Source of the DNA: Lachnoclostridium phytofermentans
GTDB taxonomy: Bacteria > Bacillota > Clostridia > Lachnospirales > Lachnospiraceae
Reading direction: 5' to 3'
Assembly (NCBI RefSeq): GCF_000733755.1
Contig: NZ_JPOF01000007.1
Location: 372,001 to 436,000 of the forward strand
Length of the DNA: 64,000 nt
The translations under genes were made by a program, and so were the position numbers. The notes under the pieces are model-generated. The model saw nothing but the letters and a program-made list of their open reading frames with translations. It did no database searches and was not told where the DNA came from. Shown here one piece after another: positions 25,028-31,637 of this stretch (its first letter is position 1; each line of letters begins with the position of its first letter).

Positions 25028-25933
25028 ATGACACTACAGCAGTTAAGATACGTAATCATGATAGCAGATTGCGGTTCTATGAATGAAGCAGCAAAGCAAC
25101 TTTTTATCTCTCAACCTAGCCTTTCAGGAACGATTAAGGAACTGGAATTAGAAATAGGTTTTGATATCTTTCTTCGTTCGAATCGAGGAATTGTAATAAC
25201 TCCAGAAGGAGAGGAGTTTCTTTCTTACGCAAAACAAGTATCAGAGCAGTATCGGTTATTGGAAGATAAGTACATCGAAAAAAAATCAAAGAAAAAATTC
25301 AGTGTATCCATGCAGCACTATACCTTTGCAGTGAAAGCTTTTGTAGAGATGGTAAAGAAGGTAGGAATGGAGCAGTATGAATTTGCGGTTCATGAAACTA
25401 AGACCTCTGAGGTGATTGAAAATGTTAAAAATTTTAAAAGTGAGCTAGGAGTTCTCTATCTCAATGATTTTAATGAGCAGGTAATGACAAAGGTTCTGAG
25501 AGAGAATAGCTTAGAGTTTATAGAGTTATTTCAATGTGATACCTATGTATACTTATGGTCAGGGCATCCATTAGCGAGCAAAAAGATGATTTCAATGAAA
25601 GAATTAGAAGAGTATCCATGTCTGGCATTTGATCAAGGAAAAAACAATTCGTTCTATCTTGCCGAAGAGGTTAAGAGTACGTTTGATTATAAACGAATTA
25701 TTAAAGCAAATGATAGAGCCACGATATTAAATTTAATGATAGGCTTACATGGATATACCCTATGTTCTGGAATTATTTGCGAGGAACTAAATGGAGATGA
25801 CTATAAGGCGGTGCCGCTGCTGGAGAGTGAAACAATGAGAATAGGATATATTAAACGGAAAGGTTCCATTATCAGTAGCAATGGCGAATTATATATCCAG
25901 GAATTGATTAATTATCGAGACAAGGTGCTATAG
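25028..25933 (+). CDS. LysR-family transcriptional regulator
   Basis: A 301-residue LysR protein. The N-terminal winged helix runs MTLQQLRYVIMIADCGSMNE, with the recognition helix in FISQPSLSGTIKELE and the wing RSNRGIVITPEGE. Residues about 90-300 are the periplasmic-binding-like effector domain. TTAGGAGG lies directly upstream. It precedes, on the same strand, the leader-controlled methionine-type uptake operon, so control of sulfur-amino-acid genes is a reasonable guess. The effector cannot be named. A perfect palindrome (TATAGGTT-T-AACCTATA) spans its stop codon. Confidence 0.9.
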   Translation: MTLQQLRYVIMIADCGSMNEAAKQLFISQPSLSGTIKELELEIGFDIFLRSNRGIVITPEGEEFLSYAKQVSEQYRLLEDKYIEKKSKKKFSVSMQHYTFAVKAFVEMVKKVGMEQYEFAVHETKTSEVIENVKNFKSELGVLYLNDFNEQVMTKVLRENSLEFIELFQCDTYVYLWSGHPLASKKMISMKELEEYPCLAFDQGKNNSFYLAEEVKSTFDYKRIIKANDRATILNLMIGLHGYTLCSGIICEELNGDDYKAVPLLESETMRIGYIKRKGSIISSNGELYIQELINYRDKVL

Positions 25934-25996
25934 GTTTAACCTATAACAGACTATTGGATTTGAGTATTAACACATTCTTCTTTGGGCTGTTATAAT
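25929..25996 (+). promoter_or_regulatory. Palindrome and predicted promoter of the methionine-uptake operon
   Basis: TATAGGTT-T-AACCTATA (25929-25945) is a perfect 17-base dyad with the T-N-A form of LysR binding sites. Downstream, TTAACA (25967-25972) and TATAAT (25991-25996) are spaced 18 bases apart. The dyad ends 22 bases before the -35 box, a position usual for LysR activation. The promoter is predicted, not proven. Confidence 0.45.
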
Positions 25997-26102
25997 AACA
26001 AACATAAGAAATACACGAGGCAAGAATCACATAGGAGAAACAAGATTATTCTATTTAAATCTGCCTAAAGTAAATGATTAAGAATAGTAAAGAAGTATGA
26101 TT

Positions 26103-26193
26103 AAGGATGAAAAAAGAAGAATTATCAAGGATGAAAAAGAAGAGTTATTAAAGATGAAAAAGAAGAGTTATTAAGGTTGAAAAAACAAGTTAT
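26103..26193. repeat. Tandem repeat, about 23 bases, four copies, in the leader region
   Basis: Units starting AAGGATGAAAAAGAAGAGTT follow each other at 26103, 26127, 26150 and 26173 with lengths 24, 23, 23 and 21. The lengths are not multiples of three, so this is not a coding repeat. It lies within the expected 5' untranslated RNA between the promoter and the leader peptide. Confidence 0.8.
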
Positions 26194-26301
26194 AAAGAAT
26201 TGGAATAGAAGAGTAGAGGAAAAAAACTGCTACTCAATAAATAATATGAATTTTAAAGTAACCTAAGCTAGAGATACAAAATAATGAAAAGGAGAAATAC
26301 A

Positions 26302-26412
26302 ATGCGTACTGTTAATTTAATCAATACTATGAATATGAAGATGTGCTGCAATAATGGATGTATGTGTAATAGCATGCCTAATACAGTGCGCTCAAAATCC
26401 GGTTTTTTGTAA
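26302..26412 (+). CDS. Met/Cys-rich leader peptide of a transcription attenuator
   Basis: A 36-codon open frame from ATG to TAA with AGGAG eight bases upstream. It encodes six Met and four Cys; the core reads TMNMKMCCNNGCMCNSM, a composition far from chance. It ends 36 bases before a strong intrinsic terminator, which in turn precedes metN. This is the classical layout of ribosome-mediated attenuation: stalling at Met or Cys codons would favour an alternative fold. ATGCCT at 26374-26379 (codons 25-26) could pair with part of the terminator's left arm, AGGGTGCAT. The peptide itself probably has no other job. No S-box or T-box motif was seen in this leader. Confidence 0.7.
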   Translation: MRTVNLINTMNMKMCCNNGCMCNSMPNTVRSKSGFL

Positions 26413-26448
26413 GATTATTGTGACTTTAATCTGAGAAAAGAACAAGGG

Positions 26449-26485
26449 AAACAGGGTGCATGAGTTTAATGCACCCTGTTTTTTT
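26449..26485 (+). terminator. Attenuator terminator before metN
   Basis: AAACAGGGTGCAT (26449-26461) pairs perfectly with ATGCACCCTGTTT (26469-26481) around seven bases; the T-run is 26479-26485. It lies between the leader peptide and metN, with the metN ribosome site 50 bases further on. Confidence 0.9.
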
Positions 26486-26542: not shown

Positions 26543-27586
26543 ATGATTCGATTTGAAAATCTTAGTAAGACGTTTGCTTCCGGTGATAGGACTGTGGATG
26601 CTGTAAAGAAGGTGAATCTGACCATTGAGAAAGGTAAGGTTTATGGCATCATTGGTTTTTCTGGGGCAGGAAAGTCAACCCTAGTAAGGTGTATAAATTT
26701 ATTAGAAAGACCAACAGAAGGTAAAGTTTTCATCGGTGATGTGGAACTCACCGCATTAAAAGGTAAGGAACTTAGAAAGCAGCGAAGAAAGATAGGAATG
26801 ATTTTTCAGCACTTTAATTTGTTTGCGTCCAGAACAGTATTCCAGAATGTAGCTTATTCGCTAAAGTACCAAGGATTATCAAGAGAACAAATCGAGGAGA
26901 AAGTCAATGAGCTGCTAAAGCTAGTAGGCCTTGAAGAAAAAGCCAAGGAATATCCGTCAAAACTTTCCGGGGGGCAAAAACAAAGGGTAGCAATTGCAAG
27001 AGCACTGGCGAATGATCCTGATATTTTACTGAGTGATGAGTCTACTAGTGCATTGGATCCACAAACTACAGTTTCAATACTAAAACTGTTGAAGGAAGTA
27101 AATCAAAAGCTTGGAATCACAATCGTTATTATCACCCATGAGATGCAGGTGGTAAAAGAGATTTGTGATAGGGTTGCAGTAATGGAAAATGGCGAAGTAG
27201 TAGAAGAAGGGGATGTATTTGGAATATTTGCCAACCCGCAGCAGAAGATAACCAAGGATTTTGTTGACAGTACTTCAAATCTTTCAAAAATCTATCATTA
27301 CATAGAGGAGAGGGCAAAGATAACAGAACTGAAAGAAGGAGAGTGTATTTTGCGATTTAAGTACCTGGAGAGAAGCACCTCAGAAGCTCTGGTATCACAG
27401 CTATCAAGAGAATTTGCATTGAACATTAATATCATTTTTGGAAATATTGAGCTTATTGGTGAAAATCCAATTGGAGGATTGGTTTCTATCGTAAGTGGTA
27501 GGAAAGAAGATATTGATGGTGCAATAAAGTATTTACAAGAAAAAAATGTTGGAGTGGAGGTGATACTTGATGCAAGAGCTTCTTAA
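26543..27586 (+). CDS. metN: Methionine-type ABC transporter ATP-binding protein MetN
   Basis: A 347-residue ATPase. Walker A is GFSGAGKST near residue 38, the signature LSGGQKQRVAIA near 140, and Walker B ILLSDESTSALDP near 160, with the H-loop IITHEM. Residues about 270-345 form the C-terminal NIL regulatory domain (LRFKYLERSTSEALVSQL), which binds methionine and inhibits transport in MetN. GAGG lies six bases before the ATG, within an 18-base motif shared with two other genes in the window. Its 3' end overlaps metI. Transport of D/L-methionine or derivatives is the family role; cystine-type substrates cannot be excluded. Confidence 0.9.
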   Translation: MIRFENLSKTFASGDRTVDAVKKVNLTIEKGKVYGIIGFSGAGKSTLVRCINLLERPTEGKVFIGDVELTALKGKELRKQRRKIGMIFQHFNLFASRTVFQNVAYSLKYQGLSREQIEEKVNELLKLVGLEEKAKEYPSKLSGGQKQRVAIARALANDPDILLSDESTSALDPQTTVSILKLLKEVNQKLGITIVIITHEMQVVKEICDRVAVMENGEVVEEGDVFGIFANPQQKITKDFVDSTSNLSKIYHYIEERAKITELKEGECILRFKYLERSTSEALVSQLSREFALNINIIFGNIELIGENPIGGLVSIVSGRKEDIDGAIKYLQEKNVGVEVILDARAS

Positions 27587-28250
27587 AGAATATTTACCCA
27601 ATGTCATGTCAAAGCTACCTGACTTTTATGAAAGCATTCTGGAAACCTTACAGATGTTTTCCAAAGCAGGGCTCATAATCTTTATCATTGGATTATTCTT
27701 AGGAATTGTCCTAACTGTAACAAAAAAGGATGGAATACTTCAGAATCTGGTGGTTTATCAGATTCTTGATAAGTTGGTGAATTTCTTTCGCTCCATTCCA
27801 TTTATTATCTTACTTGCTGGTTTGATTCCTCTAACAAGACTAATATCAGGGACAGCAATCGGAGTGAAAGGGGCAATCGTTCCATTGATTTTTGGTACAG
27901 CACCCTTCTTCTCGAGACAAGTGGAAACAGCTCTTGCAGAAATGAATGCAGGACTGGTAGAAGCTGCACAGGCGATGGGAAGTGGTCCAATTGAAATCAT
28001 TTTTAGAGTTTTGATAAAGGAATGTATTCCAGGATTAGTGAGAGCAACCACGATAACTGCGATTAACTTAATCAGTTTAACAGCGATGGCTGGTGCTATT
28101 GGTGCAGGGGGGCTTGGTGATTTTGCAATCCGTTTTGGTTATCAGCGTAATCAAACGGATGTAACCTATGCATCGGTGATTGTCTTGGTGTTACTGGTAA
28201 GTCTTATCCAGATTGTTGGTAATGCAATATCAAGAAAGAGTACACATTAG
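27570..28250 (+). CDS. metI: Methionine-type ABC transporter permease MetI
   Basis: A 226-residue permease starting MQELLKEYLPN. The ATG at 27570 was chosen for the GGAGGTGAT site just upstream, inside the end of metN. It has five or so helices, including AGLIIFIIGLFLGIVLTVT and FRSIPFIILLAGLIPLTRLI. The EAA loop is AEMNAGLVEAAQAMGSGPIE, which couples to MetN. The C-terminal segment AMAGAIGAGGLGDFAIRFGY is typical of MetI. The gene is translationally coupled to metN and followed 12 bases later by the dehydrogenase gene, so all belong to one operon. Confidence 0.9.
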   Translation: MQELLKEYLPNVMSKLPDFYESILETLQMFSKAGLIIFIIGLFLGIVLTVTKKDGILQNLVVYQILDKLVNFFRSIPFIILLAGLIPLTRLISGTAIGVKGAIVPLIFGTAPFFSRQVETALAEMNAGLVEAAQAMGSGPIEIIFRVLIKECIPGLVRATTITAINLISLTAMAGAIGAGGLGDFAIRFGYQRNQTDVTYASVIVLVLLVSLIQIVGNAISRKSTH

Positions 28251-28262
28251 GAGAGGAAAGTT

Positions 28263-29222
28263 ATGATAAAGCCAAGAAAAGTCATTATTATCGGAGCAGG
28301 GCATGTAGGCTCTCATGCCGGGTATGCACTAGCAGAACAAGGATTAGTGGAAGAAATCATTTTTATTGATATTGATGAAGAGAAAGCAAGAGCGCAAGCA
28401 CTTGATATCTATGATGCAACGGTATATCTACCACAAAGAGTTAAGGTAAGAGCAGGTGATTATAGTGATGCAGCAGATGCAGACCTTCTTGTCCTTTCTG
28501 TAGGAACCAATCCGGATAAGAATAAGGGTGAAACAAGAATGAGTACCCTTACAAAAACAGCAATGATTGTCAAAGAGGTGGCTAGGCATATTAAAAATTC
28601 TGGTTTTGACGGTATCATTGTTAGTATTTCAAATCCAGCTGATGTCATTGCACATTATTTGCAGCACTTACTTAACTACCCATCAGATAAGATTATCTCA
28701 ACAAGTACGGTATTAGATTCTGCAAGACTTAGGAGAGCAATTGCGGATGCTGTTGGTATTGACCAAAAATCAATCTACGGATATGTGCTTGGCGAACATG
28801 GAGAAAGCCAGATGGTAGCGTGGTCAACAGTCTCGATTGCCGGTAAACCAATTCTTAACCTAATCAAAGAAAAGCCTGAAAAATATGGGCGGCTTGATCT
28901 AACAAAACTTGCAGAAGAAGCCAGATTGGGCGGATGGCATATTTTAAACGGGAAAGGCTCGACGGAATTTGGAATTGGCGCAGCACTGGCTGAGGTTACC
29001 AGAGCAATTTTCTCAGATGAGAAGAAGGTACTTCCGGTATCTACACTTTTAAAAGGGGAGTATGGTCAAAAGGAGGTATATGCTTCGGTACCTACGGTAC
29101 TTGGAATTCATGGAGTAGAAGAAATTATTGAACTTAATCTGACACTTGAGGAGAAGGAGAAATTTGATGCTTCTTGTAGGACAATGAAAGAAAATTTTGA
29201 GTATGCTTTGACACTATTATAA
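28263..29222 (+). CDS. L-2-hydroxyacid dehydrogenase (lactate/malate dehydrogenase family)
   Basis: The protein has 319 residues. The NAD-binding loop is IIGAGHVGSHAG near residue 10, an acidic residue follows in FIDIDEEKA, and the substrate Arg lies in KGETRM. The catalytic His is in VLGEHGESQ near residue 180. The active-site loop reads SVGTNPDKNKGETR, without the Gln of lactate dehydrogenases and apparently longer. SNPADVIAHYLQHL and STVLDSARLRRA recall L-2-hydroxyisocaproate dehydrogenases. Lying between metI and metQ, next to an aminotransferase, it may reduce the keto acid of methionine to 2-hydroxy-4-methylthiobutyrate, or run in reverse. Simple lactate dehydrogenase activity is the alternative. 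Confidence 0.75.
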   Translation: MIKPRKVIIIGAGHVGSHAGYALAEQGLVEEIIFIDIDEEKARAQALDIYDATVYLPQRVKVRAGDYSDAADADLLVLSVGTNPDKNKGETRMSTLTKTAMIVKEVARHIKNSGFDGIIVSISNPADVIAHYLQHLLNYPSDKIISTSTVLDSARLRRAIADAVGIDQKSIYGYVLGEHGESQMVAWSTVSIAGKPILNLIKEKPEKYGRLDLTKLAEEARLGGWHILNGKGSTEFGIGAALAEVTRAIFSDEKKVLPVSTLLKGEYGQKEVYASVPTVLGIHGVEEIIELNLTLEEKEKFDASCRTMKENFEYALTLL

Positions 29223-29414
29223 AGATATGTTTAAGAAGAAATACCTATTCAAGGATCCTGCTTTCCAAGATGAGATCGGGGAATGTTATCCGAATGGATG
29301 AAGAAATTTTATTAGAAAATGTCTATCAATAATGAATATTAAAAGGAAAGTAAAGGGAGCAAAGAGACAATGATCTAAGCAATGATTGTACTGTTACCCG
29401 GAACGGAGGATATT

Positions 29415-30242
29415 ATGAGAAAATTAAAGAAATTAGGTGTATTGGCGTTAGGATTCACTTTGGCTTTTGCAGTAGCAGGATGTGCAAAAAAGGATGAAAA
29501 AAAAGAGAACTCAGTAGTTAAAGTTGGTGTAGTCGGAGAATCGAATGAAATGTGGGATCCAGTCATTGAAGAACTTAAAAAAGAAGGGATAGAGGTTCAG
29601 TTAGTGACCTTTACTGATTATAATACTCCAAATGCTGCTCTTGATGGTGGTGAGGTGGATTTAAATGCGTTCCAGCATTATGCTTATCTGAATAAAGAGA
29701 AAGAAAACTATGGATATAAGATTGATTCCATCGGTGATACCTTTATTTCTGCTATGAACATCTATTCCAAGAAGATAACGAAATTAAGTGAAATCAAAGA
29801 AGGGGATAAGGTAGCAGTTCCTAATGATGCAACAAACGAAGGAAGGGCACTAAAGGTTCTTGAAGCAGCAGCTCTTATAGAGTTAAACCCAGATGCAGGT
29901 GATAGCCCAGAAGTAAAGGATATTACTGCAAATCCATTCAATCTTGAATTAGTCGAAGTAGATGCAGCAAACGTATATGCTTTACTGCCAGACGTAACGA
30001 TTGCAGTTATTAATTGTAATTATGCTTTAGATAATGGTTTAAACCCAGGAAAAGATGCATTATTCCAAGACAGTGTAAGTATCTATGAAGGAAAAAACTA
30101 TGTGAACCTGATTGCTGCAAGAACTGAAGATTTAGAAAATGAAGTATTTAAGAAGGTTGTAAAAGCGTATCAATCCGATGCAGTAAAGGAAGTTTATGCA
30201 GATACCTTTAAGGGATCTTATTTAGCTGCATGGGAGGAGTAA
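29415..30242 (+). CDS. metQ: Methionine-type substrate-binding lipoprotein MetQ
   Basis: A 275-residue NlpA/MetQ-family lipoprotein starting MRKLKKLGVLALG. GGAGG lies seven bases upstream of the ATG; an upstream in-frame ATG (29382) has no site. The signal peptide ends in the lipobox AVAGC, so the protein is anchored outside the membrane. Further landmarks are VVKVGVVGESNEMWDPV, the YNTPNAALDGGEVDLNAFQH segment of the ligand site and VAVPNDATNEGRALKVLE. It delivers substrate to MetN/MetI. Placement after the dehydrogenase instead of next to metI is unusual. Confidence 0.9.
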   Translation: MRKLKKLGVLALGFTLAFAVAGCAKKDEKKENSVVKVGVVGESNEMWDPVIEELKKEGIEVQLVTFTDYNTPNAALDGGEVDLNAFQHYAYLNKEKENYGYKIDSIGDTFISAMNIYSKKITKLSEIKEGDKVAVPNDATNEGRALKVLEAAALIELNPDAGDSPEVKDITANPFNLELVEVDAANVYALLPDVTIAVINCNYALDNGLNPGKDALFQDSVSIYEGKNYVNLIAARTEDLENEVFKKVVKAYQSDAVKEVYADTFKGSYLAAWEE

Positions 30243-30381: not shown

Positions 30382-30462
30382 GTGAAAATAAAGATTTTTC
30401 AAACACGAATTTGTGTTGTTACCCAAATTCGCAGAAATCCGAAAAAATGGAGGTTAATATGA
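30382..30462 (+). CDS. Possible short upstream reading frame coupled to the aminotransferase gene
   Basis: GTG at 30382 has AGGAG seven bases upstream and opens a 26-codon frame (MKIKIFQTRICVV...). Its TGA overlaps the aminotransferase ATG at 30459 (ATGA). The frame crosses a hairpin, CGAATTTG (30406-30413) with CAAATTCG (30424-30431). The product is not recognised. It may be a coupling device, or chance; the strong GGAGG of the aminotransferase could act on its own. Confidence 0.35.
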   Translation: MKIKIFQTRICVVTQIRRNPKKWRLI

Positions 30463-31637
30463 AACCATTAAGCGAACGAACTGCAAATTTTACGGATTCC
30501 GTTATCCGTAGAATGACTAGAGTATCGAATCAATACGACGCCATAAATTTATCTCAAGGCTTCCCGGATTTTAATCCGCCAATAGAGATAACAGATAGAC
30601 TTGCTAACTTAGCAGGAGAAGGTCCGCATCAGTATGCGCTAACCTGGGGAGCAGAGAATTTTAGGTATGCTCTTGCTAAGAAACAAGAGATGTTTTCCGG
30701 TATGGAGATTAATCCAGACACTGAGATTGTTGTTACCTGCGGAAGTACGGAAGCAATGATGGCTGCAATGATGACGGTAACAAATCCCGGGGATAAAGTA
30801 ATTATATTTTCTCCATTTTATGAAAATTATGGCGCTGATACGATACTTTCCGGTGCCGAACCAATCTATGTTCCTCTAAAGCCACCTGCTTTTTCGTTTG
30901 ATGCAAATGAGTTGGAGGAAGCCTTTAAGAAAGGTGTAAAGGCATTGATTTTATGTAATCCATCGAACCCTTGTGGTAAAGTGTTTACTTATGAAGAATT
31001 AAAAATTATCGCAGATCTTTCTATCAAATATGATACTTATGTTATTACGGATGAAGTATACGAGCATATTGTATATGAGCCAAACAAACATAGTTATATG
31101 GCGACCTTACCTGGAATGAGGGAGAGAACGATTATATGCAGTTCGCTTTCTAAAACATATTCAATTACTGGATGGCGATTAGGATATGTAATAGCAAGTC
31201 CGTTTGTAATAGAAAGAGTAAAAAAAGTACATGACTTTTTAACGGTAGGGGCTGCCGCACCTTTAATGGAAGCAGCGGTTGTAGGGCTAAATTTTGGAGT
31301 GGATTATTACAAAGAGTTGCAACAACATTATACCCAAAAAAAAGAGCTGTTTGTAGGTGGACTGGCGGATTTAAAACTTAGTTTTACAGATCCACAGGGA
31401 GCATATTATGTTTTGGTGGATGTATCTGAGTTTAAGGTAAAAGATGATGTGAAATTTTGTGAATGGCTAGCTAGGGAAGTCGGTGTAGGTGCGGTACCAG
31501 GTTCCAGCTTTTTTAAAGAAGAGGTGCATCATCTCATAAGATTTCACTTTGCAAAGAAGGACGAGACATTAATAGGAGCTTTAAATCGTTTGTCCAATTT
31601 ACGAAAGAAGGCTAGTAATAGCAGTAGAAACTATTAA
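30459..31637 (+). CDS. Class I/II PLP-dependent aminotransferase
   Basis: A 392-residue aminotransferase starting MKPLSERTANFT, with GGAGG before the ATG at 30459. The N-terminal NLSQGFPDFNPP block, the cofactor-binding segment VTCGSTEAMMAAM, CNPSNPCGKVFT, ITDEVYEHIVYE and the Schiff-base lysine in SSLSKTYSITGWRLGY (near residue 235) are all present. C-terminal IRFHFAKKD holds the carboxylate-binding Arg. Relatives act on aspartate, methionine, aromatic amino acids or kynurenine. Position behind metN-metI-dehydrogenase-metQ favours methionine/keto-methylthiobutyrate transamination, an inference from context. Confidence 0.85.
   Translation: MKPLSERTANFTDSVIRRMTRVSNQYDAINLSQGFPDFNPPIEITDRLANLAGEGPHQYALTWGAENFRYALAKKQEMFSGMEINPDTEIVVTCGSTEAMMAAMMTVTNPGDKVIIFSPFYENYGADTILSGAEPIYVPLKPPAFSFDANELEEAFKKGVKALILCNPSNPCGKVFTYEELKIIADLSIKYDTYVITDEVYEHIVYEPNKHSYMATLPGMRERTIICSSLSKTYSITGWRLGYVIASPFVIERVKKVHDFLTVGAAAPLMEAAVVGLNFGVDYYKELQQHYTQKKELFVGGLADLKLSFTDPQGAYYVLVDVSEFKVKDDVKFCEWLAREVGVGAVPGSSFFKEEVHHLIRFHFAKKDETLIGALNRLSNLRKKASNSSRNY

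Follow-up and report, generated by a model that had tools for sequence, protein, structure and literature searches.

The window analysed here, a 64,000-nucleotide stretch of the Lachnoclostridium phytofermentans genome, carries a methionine uptake operon preceded by a LysR-type regulator gene, a promoter-like sequence and a short translated leader (Table 1). The leader frame encodes the 36-codon peptide MRTVNLINTMNMKMCCNNGCMCNSMPNTVRSKSGFL, comprising six Met (start counted) and four Cys residues and including the core TMNMKMCCNNGCMC. Exactly 36 bases past its stop codon begins a 13-pair stem (26449-26481) with a loop of 7 bases, and a T-run lies at 26479-26485; this is the sole terminator site in the region vs. 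0.1 expected from shuffles, the scan listing the near-symmetric stem on the minus strand and the T-run on the plus strand having been read directly from the sequence. An initial annotation of this DNA had described the same frame with its AGGAG, the Met/Cys counts and the 13-pair stem with T-run, and every countable detail was correct. Its statement that neither an S-box nor a T-box is present also held, as an Rfam search of the window leader matched no SAM-I/S-box, T-box (RF00230) or other family. Between the promoter and the leader lie four purine-rich imperfect direct repeats (26073-26185, spacing 23-24 bases), in place of which the sister species (locus L089) has a different purine-rich repeat tract.

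Table 1. Features of the metN locus in window coordinates, with a second leader from the same genome in contig coordinates.
Feature	Position	Strand	Basis or remark
LysR-type regulator gene	25028..25933	+	Pfam HTH_1 and LysR_substrate
17-bp palindrome TATAGGTTTAACCTATA, candidate MtaR/CmhR-type site	25929..25945	.	read from sequence
Promoter-like TTAACA-18-TATAAT, TG ahead of second hexamer	25967..25996	+	11/12 consensus positions
Ribosome-binding site AGGAG of leader frame	26290..26294	+	read from sequence
Met/Cys leader frame, 36 codons, ATG 26302, TAA 26410-26412	26302..26412	+	sequence; 81% conserved in L089; class statistics
Segment 1 GCGUACUGU, pairs with segment 2	26304..26312	+	9-pair helix in minimum-energy fold; cognate p=5e-5, 20 leaders
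Control codons Met10, 12, 14, Cys15, 16, 20, Met21, Cys22, Met25	26329..26376	+	read from sequence
Segment 2	26383..26400	+	ACAGUGCGC (26383-26391) with segment 1; GUGCGCUC (26386-26393) plus UCC (26398-26400) with segment 3 (antiterminator)
Segment 3, terminator left arm	26447..26461	+	with segment 2 (26447-26449, 26454-26461) or segment 4 (26449-26461)
Segment 4, terminator right arm and T-run	26469..26485	+	fold and terminator scan
Helix 1:2	26304-26312/26383-26391		
Helix 2:3	26386-26400/26447-26461		
Helix 3:4	26449-26461/26469-26481		
metN, methionine ABC transporter ATPase with NIL domain	26543..27586	+	best model TIGR02314 MetN
metI, permease	27570..28250	+	Pfam/NCBIfam-type model matches
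L-lactate/2-hydroxyacid dehydrogenase gene within met operon	28263..29222	+	TIGR01771 above cutoff
metQ, methionine-binding lipoprotein	29382..30242	+	Pfam Lipoprotein_9 1e-77; PDB MetQ chains
Class I aminotransferase gene	30411..31637	+	near methionine aminotransferase models; NCBIfam scores below curated cutoff
Second leader, window's own genome (locus L233, G000:C2:392500-397300)	G000:C2:396582-396680	minus	five consecutive Cys codons and terminator

A peptide search of 299 genomes gave a convincing match in the sister species only, indicating that these leader peptides diverge too fast for BLAST. The upstream regions of metN at 76 loci from the window's own family and order were scored by content, a leader being a frame of 12-60 residues preceded by a ribosome-binding site and carrying at least 6 Met/Cys within 16 residues. 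Such a leader was present in 20 of the 76 regions (MRTLLTMQITNMMMCCARTDMGMNTFIKVRMNS, MNTLSHPGFTSMNMMMCCCETMCMCNMCFTAF and MKNNNTFCMMNMCMCMMPCSKDRRIMFFDVSSF are examples), whereas dinucleotide shuffles yielded 0.1 on average and the reverse strand none, and Met+Cys came top of 190 residue pairs in these regions, whether ranked by score or by the number of loci. When, to avoid circularity, frames were picked on Met alone, all 14 of 14 contained Cys, which was enriched 4.1-fold among the other residues (p=4e-17). Judged from these sequences, many relatives carry independently diverged versions of the Met/Cys leader. The initial annotation had proposed aligning the leader across relatives, and had said that a frame or Met/Cys codons not kept in relatives would count against it; what we found is that the frame is conserved and that the Met/Cys codons, and not other residues, recur before metN. 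The Met-rich leaders are also enriched in Thr (2.4-fold) and Asn (2.1-fold) codons, both residues belonging, as does Met, to the aspartate family. In genome G324, metN occurs twice, and a separate leader precedes each copy.

The arrangement of leader and terminator proposed for this one locus extends to the class: a hairpin was found downstream of the leader stop in 24 of 24 leaders examined, usually 20-66 bases from the stop. Automatic detection missed or misplaced the hairpins at L105, L135, L160, L170 and L180, and these five were read by eye; the one at L105 has a poor T-run. According to Rfam, T-boxes precede 10 leaderless metN genes but none of the 20 leader loci, as would be expected if T-box and leader replace each other, making the T-box an apparent alternative to the leader at the very same gene. 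A RAGATH-18 RNA (Rfam RF03064) was seen 5' of one metN gene (L113:2575-2636).

To ask whether leader and terminator are matched to one another, duplex energies were computed between all leader ends and all terminator left arms of 20 non-redundant leaders, with row and column means removed. The 3'-terminal 32 bases of the frame preferred their own left arm (p=0.0003, in a window chosen after the outcome of the shuffle test was seen, three other windows likewise giving p values of 0.0009-0.012), and windows further upstream gave p=0.28 and 0.47. The region of the frame start (-6 to +20) in turn preferred its own leader end (p=5e-5; control windows p=0.17 and 0.06). The 2:3 pairing compared with shuffled spacers over all loci was marginal (combined p=0.06). 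These cognate preferences indicate that the 1:2, 2:3 and 3:4 pairings have been maintained while the sequences changed; the pairing segments are identical in the window and L089, hence there is no covariation at the level of the genus. Folding the leader with and without ribosome-covered codons, a check that the initial annotation had put forward, gave the expected switch: with a ribosome stalled on the Met/Cys codons and the right arm still unmade, the free RNA beyond it folded as the antiterminator, and with the ribosome at the stop codon or further on, the RNA folded as the terminator. When all of the RNA was free, the terminator outcompeted the antiterminator, and the model therefore requires that, as in other attenuators, the antiterminator be the first of the two to fold as the RNA is transcribed. 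That the end of the leader pairs with the left arm had been anticipated and is supported statistically, but the strand involved is GUGCGCUC plus UCC (26386-26400), which the duplex search picks, and not the AUGCCU (26374-26379) named earlier, which pairs more weakly. That annotation did not include the 1:2 helix, in which the first codons of the leader pair with the last ones to give an anti-antiterminator.

Taken together, a leader frame rich in Met and Cys codons, a terminator after it, conservation of both as a class and co-adapted 1:2 and 2:3 pairings are all in place at the level of sequence, and we consider it very probable that this leader acts as a ribosome-mediated transcription attenuator of metN-metI-ldh-metQ, reading the charging of tRNA-Met and tRNA-Cys. 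With Met and Cys plentiful, the ribosome would reach the stop codon of the leader, with segment 2 either covered or refolded with segment 1, allowing the 3:4 terminator to form and transcription to end before metN. With either amino acid short, the ribosome would stall at one of the nine internal Met/Cys codons, leaving segment 2 free to pair with segment 3, so that no terminator forms and the operon is transcribed. We infer from the layout such stalling, readthrough under starvation and a response to both amino acids; the earlier suggestion that the operon senses both of them fits the data. Since segment 1 coincides with the beginning of the frame, a stalled ribosome would sit inside the 1:2 loop and not on segment 1, which following ribosomes initiating there may keep open.

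The same layout of frame and terminator would be seen if the nascent peptide itself stalled the ribosome upon binding methionine, SAM, a metal or a drug as its ligand, in the manner of the TnaC or Erm leaders, with the terminator prevented in that way. We regard this as highly unlikely, in that arrest peptides keep specific residues, whereas our peptides, when aligned across genera, have little in common beyond Met and Cys, the order and spacing of which vary. In close relatives, the Met/Cys residues were likewise the better conserved (30 same and 4 changed vs. 43 and 26 for other residues, p=0.006). That only Met/Cys content recurs, and that these residues are the more conserved, is what codon sensing predicts and not what an arrest peptide or a folded product predicts.

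The leaders at other sulfur genes bear on the same issue. A profile of 14 leaders searched in 397 genomes returned a single leader in each genome, almost always that of metN, and added one strong leader, which lies with its terminator before metY (O-acetylhomoserine sulfhydrylase, TIGR01326 above cutoff) in G053, and one weak but real leader before a cysteine transporter. The window's own genome, searched with the profile and with the Cys leader of the sister species, has a second leader (Table 1); the Cys-run leaders of the sister and of this genome, MKVNHTNNANQNMMCCCCCMSKSTAYLCAPNNI and MKMYHTNNENQNIGCCCCCMCQTTAYLCARNGI, each having five Cys codons in a row, are 70% identical, and in both genomes leader and terminator precede a predicted cysteine (amino-acid) ABC transporter. 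Among solved structures, its binding protein is closest to 2yjp and 1xt8 (E about 1e-90), which are listed as the cysteine receptors Ngo2014 and CjaA (PMC9824665). With Met/Cys before metN and metY and a Cys run before a transporter of the cysteine-receptor type, the leader codons match the substrate of the operon, an agreement that fits codon sensing and speaks against peptide arrest; it also offers a means to predict the substrates of unnamed transporters in these genomes. A search of the 397 genomes with the pattern ATGATGATGTGYTGY gave 49 matches vs. 3 for the reversed control, and most of the 30 loci inspected fall inside or antisense to genes; only 8 were leader-like, of which 7 precede metN and the remaining one a rhodanese gene. 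At L197 (G293), a Met/Cys leader with terminator precedes a rhodanese-like gene.

Returning to attenuation by codon sensing, Met is also the amino acid with which translation initiates, raising the question of how a ribosome that itself needs Met reports Met scarcity. As the start of the frame forms the 1:2 helix, the leader might also read translation initiation, and a shortage of Met would slow initiation on the leader. We speculate, tentatively and with more doubt than conviction, that these leaders represent a class of attenuator with two inputs that is confined to this lineage of clostridia, in which the charging of tRNA-Met and tRNA-Cys is integrated with initiation capacity (initiator Met-tRNA), and that the Cys-run sister leaders together with the cysteine transporter would make up a small regulon.

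Upstream of the leader, orthologues of the LysR-type regulator adjoin metN in L089, L100, L101, L108, L128 and L021 (55-95% identity), and the regulator itself matches general LysR models only. The palindrome TATAGGTTTAACCTATA overlaps the stop codon of this gene, lies shortly 5' of the TTAACA hexamer at 25967, and agrees at 14 of 16 defined positions, two differing, with the CmhR/MtaR site of pneumococci, TATAGTTTSAAACTATA (PMC5359408). MET-box-like palindromes of this kind suggest MtaR-type control in Clostridia, and besides the attenuator there is probably a further layer of control, exerted at the promoter by the LysR protein through the palindrome. The resemblance to the MtaR/CmhR regulators of streptococcal methionine genes (PMC5359408) lies in the LysR gene and in the 17-bp palindrome, nearly identical in sequence, that precede a methionine uptake operon, and is drawn from the site and from general LysR models; the present locus differs in having a predicted attenuator downstream as a second layer. 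A similar palindrome immediately follows the same LysR gene and precedes metN at L021, with looser versions at L015, L101 and L108.

Given the LysR gene and the MET-box-like palindrome, and given that several relatives have LysR without a leader, one may ask if control is exerted by LysR at the promoter only, the frame being a relic or spurious and the hairpin merely ending short transcripts. The chances of this are slim in our view. In the sister species, where metN is 94% and the leader peptide 81% identical, the block from the ribosome-binding site to the terminator is kept while the sequence on both sides has diverged, and every Met and Cys of the window peptide is retained, including through a synonymous TGC/TGT change; moreover, independent leaders recur with the same codons. 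Least probable of all, the peptide, with its MxM and CC motifs (typical Cu(I) ligands) and a terminator just 3' of its frame, could itself be the product, a small metal-binding or modified peptide (copper-binding or RiPP-like) with an ordinary terminator, but no modification or metal genes are seen in the operon, metN recurs as the gene that follows the leader, with metY, a rhodanese gene or a cysteine transporter making up the other cases, and the complementarity of the leader end to both the terminator arm and the leader start would be needless for a product peptide.

Attenuation governed by Met and Cys codons thus remains the reading we favor, and it has to be set against known systems. Methionine genes of Firmicutes are described in the literature consulted as being under SAM riboswitches, T-boxes or LysR regulators. 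The T-box binds tRNA directly and the S-box binds SAM, neither using a translated leader; methionine T-box and S-box (SAM-I) leaders resemble our leaders in exerting 5' premature-termination control over the same genes, metN included, and differ in that here a leader is translated and neither RNA family is present. The closest likeness in layout is to attenuators of the trp/his/ilv type (trpL, hisL), with a leader rich in the regulated amino acid, 1:2/2:3/3:4 pairings and an intrinsic terminator before the operon; here, by contrast, Met and Cys codons are mixed, uptake (metNIQ) and not synthesis is controlled, the bacterial family is a different one and, as compared with the trp attenuator, segment 1 is the start of the frame, ahead of the control codons and not on them. 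His-leader attenuators have been described in Firmicutes (PMC9413887, PMC2965389). Cys-rich leader peptides precede cys biosynthesis operons of Actinobacteria without an obvious terminator (PMC1262725) and share with ours the runs of Cys codons, the short frame and the position before sulfur amino-acid genes, whereas the leaders described here have intrinsic terminators, paired segments and Met. While leader-peptide attenuators are known, the mixed Met/Cys version is apparently unreported, as the open-access literature searched yielded no description of leader attenuators with Met or mixed Met/Cys codons, nor of such leaders in Lachnospiraceae. Leader-peptide attenuation with mixed Met/Cys codons would accordingly be a further solution for methionine genes, spread through a large family.

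As for the operon itself, the dehydrogenase gene lies between metI and metQ, and it likewise follows metI in L011, L101, L105-L107 and L133-L135. Together with the aminotransferase gene at 30411, the dehydrogenase gene at 28263 suggests that imported methionine is converted to a keto or hydroxy acid. In L105 and L107, metN lies directly downstream of a cysK-like gene.
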